Shown here in pieces: positions 15,882 to 19,098 of a stretch of 61,310 nucleotides of DNA. The notes beneath the pieces are model-generated. The model had not been told where the DNA came from. It saw only the letters and a list, made by a program, of their open reading frames with translations, and made no database searches. How positions within the stretch are numbered: the first letter of the stretch is position 1; the number at the start of each line of letters is the position of its first letter. A program made the translations under genes and the position numbers. The stretch lies in NCBI GenBank assembly GCA_021161905.1, contig JAGGZT010000071.1:1-61310 (forward strand), read 5' to 3'. Source of the DNA: Acidobacteriota bacterium. Its GTDB lineage: Bacteria; Acidobacteriota; B3-B38; Guanabaribacteriales; JAGGZT01.

Positions 15882-17115
15882 TCCTCCTTTTCCGTCTCCT
15901 TATTGCCCGCTCAAAGCAGTTGAGATACTGCTCTCCAACCTTGTCCCAGGTGTGCTTCCTCTCGATCCTTTTCCTCGCTTCTTCCGCCAACTTCCTCCTC
16001 AGTTTGGGAGAACGAGCGAGCTTTATTATCGCCTGTGCCAGGGCTTTTTCGTCCTTTTCCGGTATTAAAATGCCGTTTTCCTCGTTGGAGATTACGCTTG
16101 GTATCCCTCCTATCTCGCTCGCTACTACCGCCTTTTTTGAGGATAGCGCCTCCATAACCACATTGGGGAGCCCATCCACATTTCCTTCCGCATCGTGGAT
16201 CGAGGGGACGGCGATGATGTCGGCAGCGTTCATAAAGGCGGGAACCCGTTCCCGGGGTAATTTGCCGGGAAAGAGGAAGTAATCTGCTACCTCGCACTCG
16301 GAGGTGAGTTTTTTTAAATTCTCCTCCAAGTCACCTGAACCGGCGATGAGGAACCGGATGTTAGGTACCTCAGCTATTACCATTGGCGCTGCTTTTATCA
16401 GATATTCAAACCCCTTCTTCGCCACCAGCCTTCCGATGGCGAAGACGAGGATGTCGTTTCCCCCCAATTTTAGCTCACTTCGCACCTCCTCCCGCATCCT
16501 TTCATTAGGATGGAAGGCTGCAGGGTCCACCCCGTAGGGGATAGTGGTGGCGCACTCCTTCCCTCCCCCTATCTTGAGTGCTCGTTCTTTTAGATCGTCA
16601 CTCGAGGCAGTGATCCAATCGGCGGCATCGAGGGCGATTTGGGCGGATTTTTTGAAGATCCATCCTTTTTCAGCGAGGAATACATCTGAGCCATGAAGGC
16701 TCACCACCAAGGGAAGTCCGGTTAATCTCGCCGCAATAGCCGCGGGAAGTCCGTTTGGGAGAAGCCAGTTTGCTTGGATGAGGTCAAAACGGTAGCGCCG
16801 GGTGAGGGAGAGGATGGAGAAAAAAAGGGAGCCCAAGGCAAGTGGGGCGATAAGGAATATCCCGTCCCTTACCCGTTCATCAGCCTCAAGTGATTGGGCA
16901 TAGCCCCATTTTGCGAGAGATTTGGTTGGTGCGTAATGGTAGATGTGGAAGTGGATATTTCCCCCTTCCCTTACCGTAAGTTTTGGGTGTTCCGGGATAA
17001 GAAGGTGAACCTCATTCCCCTTTTTTGCGACCGCCTTGGCAATGCTTTCGATGAAGGGAGCAATCACATCCCCCGGGAAACGGGGATATGAGGAGCTCAC
17101 CATTAAGATCCTCAT
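15874..17115 (-). CDS. GT4 family glycosyltransferase
   Basis: The start is placed at ATG 17115 (413 residues) because it forms an ATGA overlap with the stop of the upstream gene, follows GGGGAGGAA, and begins with the canonical MRILMVSSSYPRFPGDVIAP. A 14-residue upstream extension is unlikely. Residues 1-190 are the acceptor half (HGSDVFLAEKG near 150). The donor half has LVFAIGRLVAKKGFEYLIKA and PSIHDAEGNVDGLPNVVMEA. The insertion NVDGLP before the conserved E is seen in teichuronic-acid/colanic-acid type GT4 enzymes. The exact donor is unknown. Confidence 0.85.
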   Translation of the reverse strand: MRILMVSSSYPRFPGDVIAPFIESIAKAVAKKGNEVHLLIPEHPKLTVREGGNIHFHIYHYAPTKSLAKWGYAQSLEADERVRDGIFLIAPLALGSLFFSILSLTRRYRFDLIQANWLLPNGLPAAIAARLTGLPLVVSLHGSDVFLAEKGWIFKKSAQIALDAADWITASSDDLKERALKIGGGKECATTIPYGVDPAAFHPNERMREEVRSELKLGGNDILVFAIGRLVAKKGFEYLIKAAPMVIAEVPNIRFLIAGSGDLEENLKKLTSECEVADYFLFPGKLPRERVPAFMNAADIIAVPSIHDAEGNVDGLPNVVMEALSSKKAVVASEIGGIPSVISNEENGILIPEKDEKALAQAIIKLARSPKLRRKLAEEARKRIERKHTWDKVGEQYLNCFERAIRRRKRRNG

Positions 17116-17852
17116 TTCCTCCCCTGTTTCTTCTGGAAGCCGCGATAGCGCCACCACAGCTTGAGCACGGTGACGAAGGCAGAGTATATCTCCCCGAAGG
17201 TCAGATTGGAGGTTCCCCGTTGGCGATTTACGAACACGGTGGGCACCTCCCCAATGCGGAAGCCGAGAAGGTGGATCTGATAGGCGAGCTCACTTAATAC
17301 AATATATCCCTTTTCTTCTATCTTGTCGAAATCGAGCGAAGCAAGCACCTCGCGACGATAGAGACGATAACCGTTGGTGTAATCGGAGATGGGGATCCTG
17401 AGGATAGCTTTGACATAGAAATTGGCTAAATGGCTAAATATGGTTCTCATTGGACCCCAATTTACTATCTTGCTTCCGGGAAGATACCTCGAGCCTATCA
17501 CCACATCGTATTCTTTTGCCTTCTCAAGCAGTTTTGGAAGATCGACAGGGCTATGGGAAAAATCCGCATCCATCTCCATAATGTAGCTGTATTTCTCCCC
17601 TTGGGAAAGCCCGTAGCGGAAGCCATCGATGGTGGCGCCTCCTCTTCCTCCTTTCCCCTCACGATGGATTATCTTCACCCGGGGTTCTTTTTCCGCTATC
17701 TCGTCCACGATCTTCCCCGTTCCGTCCGGGGAGTTGTCGTCGACCACAAGGATATCCAGGGGATAAGGGAGGTGAAGCAGTTCCGCTATTAGTCGCTCGA
17801 TATTCCCCCGCTCGTTATAGGTGGGAATGACGATTAGCGTCCGTTCGTCCAT
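17112..17852 (-). CDS. Polyprenol-phosphate mannosyltransferase-like GT2 (DPM1 type)
   Basis: 246 residues, a single-domain DPM1-type GT2 without membrane helices. Visible motifs are IVIPTYNERGNIERLI at the N-terminus, VVDDNSPDGTG for nucleotide binding, and MEMDADFSHSP for metal and donor binding. VIGSRYLPG and the acceptor-side TNGYRLYRREVL segment follow. Such enzymes transfer a hexose, typically mannose, from GDP-sugar to a polyprenyl phosphate, producing the donor for outside-facing GT-C enzymes. The GT39-type membrane protein at 19202-20464 and others nearby are candidate users. It overlaps the following GT4 gene by 4 bases and lies 1 base from the DegT-family gene. Confidence 0.85.
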   Translation of the reverse strand: MDERTLIVIPTYNERGNIERLIAELLHLPYPLDILVVDDNSPDGTGKIVDEIAEKEPRVKIIHREGKGGRGGATIDGFRYGLSQGEKYSYIMEMDADFSHSPVDLPKLLEKAKEYDVVIGSRYLPGSKIVNWGPMRTIFSHLANFYVKAILRIPISDYTNGYRLYRREVLASLDFDKIEEKGYIVLSELAYQIHLLGFRIGEVPTVFVNRQRGTSNLTFGEIYSAFVTVLKLWWRYRGFQKKQGRK

Positions 17853-17853
17853 C

Positions 17854-19062
17854 TTAGCCTAATATCTTCTCGAATGCCTCTACAATGTAGTCGAGATCCT
17901 CCTGGTTGAGGTATTGGTGGCACCCGATGTAAAATCCGTTTTTGCCGACAAAGTCGGCGTTGGGCAGTTTTCCCTGATATTCCTCCTTGAGGAAGGAGTA
18001 AGCTGGCTGTTGGGTAGGGATGGAACCGAAGAGAGGCCTTGTTTCCACCCCCAATTGTTCCAGCTCATGGCGCAATTGATACCGCGTTATCGGTGCCTCC
18101 TGCTTCAATACTATGGGATAAGCGAGATAGCTCACCCGCTCGTCGAAGAGAGGAAGCCTCAGCACCTCCTCGTATTTTTTTAACCGTTCGTTTAAGTAGC
18201 GGACATTTTCCTGTCTCCGCTTGAATATCCAATCTGCCTTCTTCATCTGGGTAATACCGAGTGCTGCCTGGAACTCCATCGTTTTGAAGTTGTAGCCGAT
18301 GATATCGTGGGTGAACCTTGGGTCGTGATCCTCCTCATCAGTTGGCTCTTTGGGACAGTATCCCTTGCTTCGGGTGCAGACGGGGCAATCGCAGAGCCTC
18401 CCGTTTGCCTTTATCTTCATCACCAGCCTTCTTATTTCTGGATCATCGGTGGTTATCGCTCCCATCTCTCCAGCCTGAATGTTATGGGCGATATAGAAGG
18501 AAAAAGCACCGAAGGAAGACCAACTTCCGGTTCTTTTCCCCTGGTAAATGGAGCCGTGTGCCTGAGCGGAGTCCTCCACCACCACCAGGTTATATCTCTC
18601 CGCTATTTTGTTTAGCCGGTCCATCGCACAAGGATAACCCATCAAATGCACTGGGAGGAGGACGGAAAAGTGGTCAGGGTTAGGGGTGTTTTTCAGGAGT
18701 TCCTCAACAGCTTCTGGAGTGATGTGGAAGGTTTCTGGATCTATATCAACGAAAACAGGCTCAAATCCTGTCTGAACGATGGCGTTCACCGTGGCAATGT
18801 AGGTAAGAGGGGTTGTTATGATCTTGCTTCCTCGACTCACCCGGTATTTATCGTGGTGTACCAGAGCGGATAAGCCCGCCATAATGGCGGCGGTTCCTGA
18901 ACTCAGGGCAACCGCGTATCTTGTGCCGATATATTCGGCAAATATCTGTTCGAATTGAGCGACCTTCCTTCCCTCCGAAAGCCTCCCCTGATCGAGCACC
19001 TCGAAGATGGCTCGTTTTTCCTCCTCGGAGATCCGAAAATCGCCAACCGCTATCTTTCGCAT
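17854..19062 (-). CDS. DegT/DnrJ/EryC1-family enzyme with His in place of the PLP lysine and a four-Cys motif
   Basis: The start is ATG 19062 (402 residues): AGGAGA lies 7 bases upstream and a probable promoter at 19099-19127 would exclude the longer frame. The fold type I PLP domain is clear: SSGTAAIMAGL at 54-64, TTPLTYIATVNAI at 83-95 and VVEDSAQAHGS at 161-171. The usual SFxxxK lysine is His193 in SFYIAHNIQAGEMGAI. His at this position is known from the PMP-dependent sugar 3-dehydrases E1/RfbH and ColD, not from aminotransferases. Cys224, Cys226, Cys229 and Cys236 form C-x-C-x2-C-x6-C right after the active-site region, suggesting a metal or Fe-S site. A deoxysugar dehydrase is inferred; a plain aminotransferase is less likely. 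Confidence 0.82.
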   Translation of the reverse strand: MRKIAVGDFRISEEEKRAIFEVLDQGRLSEGRKVAQFEQIFAEYIGTRYAVALSSGTAAIMAGLSALVHHDKYRVSRGSKIITTPLTYIATVNAIVQTGFEPVFVDIDPETFHITPEAVEELLKNTPNPDHFSVLLPVHLMGYPCAMDRLNKIAERYNLVVVEDSAQAHGSIYQGKRTGSWSSFGAFSFYIAHNIQAGEMGAITTDDPEIRRLVMKIKANGRLCDCPVCTRSKGYCPKEPTDEEDHDPRFTHDIIGYNFKTMEFQAALGITQMKKADWIFKRRQENVRYLNERLKKYEEVLRLPLFDERVSYLAYPIVLKQEAPITRYQLRHELEQLGVETRPLFGSIPTQQPAYSFLKEEYQGKLPNADFVGKNGFYIGCHQYLNQEDLDYIVEAFEKILG

Positions 19063-19098
19063 CGCTCGTTCTCCTAAAACAAAGGCAATCAGGCTCAA

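Follow-up and report, generated by a model that had tools for sequence, protein, structure and literature searches.

A family of His-type DegT proteins with a compact four-cysteine loop: candidate PMP-dependent sugar 3-dehydrases related to, but distinct from, E1 and ColD

Enzymes that join vitamin B6 with an iron-sulphur cluster are very few, and those named in a review are E1 and SpnQ (PMC8987622). E1 (also known as RfbH, AscC or DdhC), the CDP-4-keto-6-deoxyglucose 3-dehydrase (3bcx), has the DegT fold with a histidine in place of the PLP-binding lysine and needs the reductase E3, whereas SpnQ, the dTDP-4-keto-2,6-dideoxyglucose 3-dehydrase, accepts ferredoxin or flavodoxin systems (PMC8987622). 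ColD, the GDP-4-keto-6-deoxy-D-mannose 3-dehydratase (2gms), shares the fold and the histidine, but has no Fe-S cluster and employs neither E3 nor a ferredoxin/flavodoxin system, using glutamate (PMC8987622). One study could not prepare E1/E3 in active form and put this down tentatively to a defective cluster (PMC7851689).

The window analysed here, the whole stretch of 61,310 nucleotides from an Acidobacteriota contig, encodes a protein that appears to work like E1 or ColD, yet the tests applied here place it in neither group. The gene, its key codons and its downstream neighbour are as follows.

17854-19062, minus strand: gene of the putative dehydrase, referred to below as family A; 402 residues plus stop, ATG at 19062, stop codon 17854-17856, coding part 17857-19062.
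19068-19074, minus strand: probable ribosome-binding site AGGAGAA, 5' of the ATG.
18484-18486, minus strand: His193 codon, at the position of the PLP-binding lysine (H220 in E1, H188 in ColD) in the PDB alignment.
18355-18393, minus strand: putative cluster or metal loop, C224-x-C226-x2-C229-x6-C236, from alignment and conservation.
18564-18566, minus strand: Ala166 codon, aligned with the E1 ligand Cys193; never Cys in family A or its sister family B.
17112-17852, minus strand: next gene downstream, a GT2 glycosyltransferase like archaeal dolichol-phosphate mannose synthase (5mlz, E=2e-26).

The reading frame is unbroken and its ATG directly follows TTTTAGGAGAACGAGCG, a plausible ribosome-binding site. 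Pfam DegT_DnrJ_EryC1 (PF01041) spans the whole protein (315 bits, cut-off 19.8), and the AlphaFold model has a mean pLDDT of 96.1 and a pTM of 0.94. In a phmmer search of the PDB the E1 dehydrase entries 3bcx and 3bb8 scored best (E about 1e-58), followed by ColD (1e-50), and the alignment pairs H193, which sits in SFYIA-H-NIQAGEMG, with H220 of E1. The translation and this pairing bear out the initial annotation, which had pointed to His193 in place of the PLP lysine and to the C-x-C-x2-C-x6-C motif at residues 224-236.

The folds closest to the predicted model are those of GDP-perosamine synthase (3dr4, 3bn1; the top match, 29% identity), ColD and E1. GDP-perosamine synthase has the same presumed substrate, GDP-4-keto-6-deoxymannose, but is a Lys-type aminotransferase without the Cys loop. 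This match, together with the habit of annotation pipelines of naming such proteins DegT/DnrJ/EryC1/StrS family aminotransferases, could be taken to mean that the window protein is an ordinary PLP aminotransferase, in which His193 merely looks like a lysine replacement and the cysteines are incidental. Such a reading is hardly credible and was rejected, as the histidine is present in all 44 family A sequences (68/68 when family B is included) and the Lys-type proteins form a separate clade without the cysteines.

A scan of bacterial and archaeal genomes returned family A members at 54–66% identity, below which identity falls to about 34%; a relative at 37% was found on a Solidesulfovibrio plasmid, and a later search added a family A member at 48%. 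His193 and the four cysteines are unchanged in 35/35 distinct members of the first set and, after further genomes, in 44/44 distinct homologues from bacteria and archaea, so the His and Cys pattern is not due to chance. The conservation check that had been suggested thus gave invariant residues throughout family A, while the Cys motif occurs in 0/28 Lys-type homologues; neither a variable ligand nor a lysine-bearing protein with the motif was found. Record titles name the cultured Methanobrevibacter cuticularis (L034), Methanoperedens, Nanoarchaeota, Thermoplasmatota, Elusimicrobia, Omnitrophota, Chloroflexi, Spirochaetes and Peptococcaceae, among others; the members are thus taxonomically scattered and, judged by these names, seem to come mostly from oxygen-poor habitats, a distribution suggestive of gene transfer. 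No description of the family was found in the open-licence literature searched, and family A is a discrete, widespread and apparently undescribed family of DegT proteins. Two further cysteine positions lie outside the loop motif: C381, in G-C-H-Q-Y, is kept in 43/44 members, and residue 347 is Cys in 36/44 and Ser in the window protein.

The relation to E1 is clearest in the cysteine ligands, whose positions in E1 are taken from 3bcx numbering, the review (PMC8987622) and the initial annotation. The spacing C193-x57-C251-x-C253-x7-C261 was confirmed on the chain numbering of 3bcx in the alignment, where C224 and C226 pair with C251 and C253, in both proteins as a CxC directly after a conserved Gly-Arg, and C236 probably matches C261. 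The E1 [2Fe-2S] motif is nevertheless incomplete in the window protein, as the C193 equivalent is Ala166 and there is an extra cysteine, C229, in the loop, so that three of the four E1 ligand positions appear to be kept and the fourth moved. The difference in spacing noted earlier stands, but the motif is related to that of E1, with C224, C226 and probably a third cysteine at E1 ligand positions.

The same exchange is seen in the sister family B, which comprises 24 sequences at 37–41% identity. These are His-type, with the histidine at the position of His193 in VAHIIT, and carry CxCx2Cx8C, the fourth Cys being followed by x-K-R-F exactly as after C261 of E1. Family B is frequent in Omnitrophota and also occurs in Nanoarchaeota and on a Solidesulfovibrio magneticus plasmid; its members are found at the loci

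L133-L153, L158, L159 and L016:11989-13194.

Across the whole set, the CxCx7C loop is paired with Cys193 in 31/31 E1-type sequences, and the extra loop Cys with a non-Cys residue at position 193 in 68/68 family A and B sequences. CxC-loop proteins carry either the remote Cys193 or the extra loop Cys, never both; every loop-bearing protein has four cysteines, while His-type proteins without loop cysteines lack all of them, these counts being drawn from few clades rather than from independent events. The all-or-none pattern is better explained by a four-thiolate cluster or metal site that was inherited at its old position while one ligand was swapped than by an unrelated zinc site, though the pattern is no proof of iron.

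In phylogenies the His-type group, consisting of E1, ColD, families A and B and a few others, splits from the Lys-type proteins with support of 100/99. Family A is a single clade (100/99), also with the Cys loop columns left out, and is separate from the E1 clade (100/99 as well). E1 and ColD come out as sisters (100/98), so ColD groups with E1 rather than with family A; if that relationship is correct, the loop was lost toward ColD or gained more than once. With the loop columns removed the clades hold, but support for the deep split in the His group is poor (50/85). A tree that unites family A, L016 and E1 to the exclusion of ColD is not rejected (p-AU 0.06), and under it the CxC loop of A, B and E1 may have had a single origin. 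Direct membership in RfbH/E1 was rejected on the motif, the clade and a score of 260 bits against the RfbH model NCBIfam NF011936, below its 423-bit cut-off; identity to E1-type homologues is about 31–35%. The earlier description of a His-type, PMP-dehydrase-like protein distinct from both E1 and ColD and bearing a compact four-Cys site is upheld by motif, clades and conservation. In a relative from the same phylum (L015:1501-2664, G073), which neighbours the His-type proteins L011 and L014 without a Cys loop on the tree, the PLP-lysine position is occupied by Gln.

Gene neighbourhoods in relatives point to the substrate. Among 34 family A loci gmd is present in 19 (directly adjacent in 12), compared with 3/47 control loci (Fisher p about 1e-6). 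A ColC/Fcl-type SDR adjoins the family A gene in 18/34, compared with 4/47 for the controls (Fisher p about 1e-5). The controls are loci of other DegT genes and include two true ColD loci, L074 and L078, which show the same arrangement as family A loci; in 11 of the 34, several of them on short contigs, neither gene lies nearby. A pooled count of 27/43 was set aside, L044 and L177 being apparently the same contig. The full set is seen in L039, with Gmd (507 bits, cut-off 415), family A and an Fcl-type SDR (L039:9217-10155), and all complete companion SDRs checked keep Ser/Thr107, Cys109, Tyr136, Lys140 and His179 (E. coli Fcl numbering), the residues for reduction and epimerization. A further eight loci from Omnitrophota and Nanoarchaeota have gmd in seven cases, several with a second Gmd/Rmd-like SDR. 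Genome content separates the groups less, with Gmd above the curated cut-off in 12/20 family A genomes and also in 6/14 control genomes, so the neighbourhood is the stronger evidence. Family A thus differs from E1 in standing among gmd and ColC rather than rfbF-rfbG, and many of its members resemble ColD in standing between Gmd and a ColC/Fcl-type SDR. RfbH itself co-occurs with family A in L019, L021, L035 and L047 (with rfbF and rfbG in the last three), showing that family A coexists with E1 rather than replacing it; a single organism may therefore produce 3,6-dideoxy sugars of two kinds.

The window's own locus does not follow the arrangement of those relatives, as gmd and colC are absent from it. 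The next gene, the GT2 glycosyltransferase, resembles in sequence a GDP-mannose-using enzyme, and a relative of it lies directly 3' of family A in L029 (L029/L010), L031, L032 and L041. The gene lies within a large cell-surface polysaccharide cluster (2359-35542) with many GT1, GT2 and PMT-like glycosyltransferases, a flippase-like protein and a UDP-glucose dehydrogenase (by reading translations), and a KpsF-like SIS-CBS protein and an LPG-synthase-like membrane protein (by Pfam). The host genome, of about 2.1 Mb and estimated at 100% completeness, has no Gmd or Fcl above cut-off, just Gmd/Rmd-like SDRs on a second contig:

G000:C58:1136-3021 (L107), host genome: tandem Gmd/Rmd-like SDRs after an RmlD-like gene.

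Matches scoring like this pair occur in the genomes of L017, L019, L029, L033 and L043, which also lack Gmd above the cut-off, and the C58 pair could supply the 4-keto-6-deoxy sugar in the host. In that case the pathway in this host might lead to a 3,6-dideoxy sugar of the D series. The presence of this pair without Fcl, the several Omnitrophota loci in which family A accompanies Gmd and a second Gmd/Rmd-like SDR, and the occurrence of family B among genes for an HddA-like kinase, an HddC-like guanylyltransferase and TPP enzymes would all suit a His-type DegT protein with another outcome or substrate, such as a D-series GDP-sugar 3-dehydrase leading to a GDP-tyvelose-like product via an Rmd-type reductase, an enzyme acting on a heptose, or one catalysing other C3/C4 redox chemistry. 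This is improbable, as the companion reductase, where a family A locus has one, is mostly of the ColC/Fcl type with epimerase residues. The most likely substrate is still GDP-4-keto-6-deoxy-D-mannose: where the initial annotation had suggested that the protein may be an Fe-S or zinc dependent deoxysugar dehydrase, the context in relatives adds GDP-sugars (Gmd/ColC), a specification beyond the reach of the single window.

The supply of electrons bears on whether the loop holds a working cluster. No Fer2-domain protein was found anywhere in the host genome, compared with 12/14 control genomes that have one, and so the assembly has no E3-type reductase (Fer2/FAD/NAD), a further difference from E1 systems; the remark that no reductase partner is visible holds genome-wide to that extent. 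A rough scan for a Fer2 motif came up empty around family A loci and around E1 control loci alike, so a missing neighbouring E3 says little and the genome-wide absence says more. The host does encode 32 Fer4_7 (4Fe-4S) stretches, some in small ferredoxins, and flavodoxin-like proteins, and it is possible that a ferredoxin feeds the putative cluster. SpnQ provides a precedent, being a PMP/[2Fe-2S] 3-dehydrase that works without E3, but it acts on a dTDP sugar and has an E1-type motif, a comparison made from the review's description (PMC8987622).

The main rival to a ferredoxin-fed cluster is a ColD-like hydrolytic cycle, in which the same C3 dehydration would end in enamine hydrolysis, PMP would be regenerated from glutamate, no electron donor would be needed and the four cysteines would hold a structural zinc. 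There are proteins, tRNA-guanine transglycosylase among them, in which a compact CxCx2C site holds zinc, and both the gmd/ColC context, which is that of ColD, and the absence of a Fer2-type reductase from the host genome agree with such a cycle. It is nonetheless rather unlikely, given that two and probably three of the cysteines lie at E1 [2Fe-2S] ligand positions, that the four-Cys set is kept through the exchange of Cys193 for a loop Cys, and that ColD has none of the loop cysteines, all four of which are invariant in family A.

The reading favoured here, with moderate confidence, is instead that the window protein belongs to a new lineage within the E1/ColD group and is a PMP-dependent sugar-nucleotide C3-dehydrase whose most likely substrate is GDP-4-keto-6-deoxy-D-mannose. 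Its cysteine site would resemble that of E1 and probably hold a [2Fe-2S] cluster. The use of PMP, the removal of the C3 oxygen, the GDP-linked substrate, the cluster and its electron donor are all argued from sequence and gene context. Gmd or a Gmd-like SDR would first make the 4-keto-6-deoxy sugar, as context suggests in relatives and by extension in the host genome. As the histidine, fold and homology suggest, PMP would then form a Schiff base at C4, and His193, like its counterparts in E1 and ColD, would take a proton and drive the C3 hydroxyl off. A cluster, most likely of the [2Fe-2S] kind, would sit in the four-Cys loop where E1 has its own, with Cys229 replacing Cys193. Electrons relayed by this cluster from a ferredoxin would reduce the hexoseen intermediate, giving GDP-4-keto-3,6-dideoxymannose. 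The last step, to GDP-colitose or another GDP-3,6-dideoxyhexose, would fall to a ColC/Fcl-type SDR in most relatives and to an Rmd-type SDR in others, and glycosyltransferases would use the product for a surface glycan.

What is new is probably the combination in one enzyme of features so far known from two separate enzymes. More tentatively, anaerobic bacteria and archaea may use the family for an E1-like, reductive synthesis of GDP-3,6-dideoxyhexoses (GDP-colitose, perhaps GDP-tyvelose) driven by a cluster, in which a one-loop PMP/Fe-S 3-dehydrase, served by a general ferredoxin in place of E3, replaces ColD between Gmd and ColC. If this is true, a large uncharacterised set of proteins in anaerobes would open E1 radical chemistry to study in new proteins, and many entries named simply aminotransferases would be corrected. 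It would also show the rebuilding of a cluster ligand set within one fold; taken with family B, the cluster site would be able to re-site a ligand and may predate the cluster-free ColD, and the order of cluster gain and loss in E1 and ColD would become testable.

Family B itself may serve a different pathway. In several of its loci the gene has as neighbours an HddA-like GHMP kinase, an HddC-like guanylyltransferase, a B12-radical SAM gene and the alpha/beta pair of a TPP-dependent E1. This context suggests a GDP-heptose pathway, the product being perhaps a GDP-heptose-derived branched or deoxy sugar. Two family A genes (L097 and L098) and a Cys-less His-type relative (L099) lie among sugar genes on contigs classed as viral in IMG/VR; the classification may be wrong, or large viruses may carry these genes.
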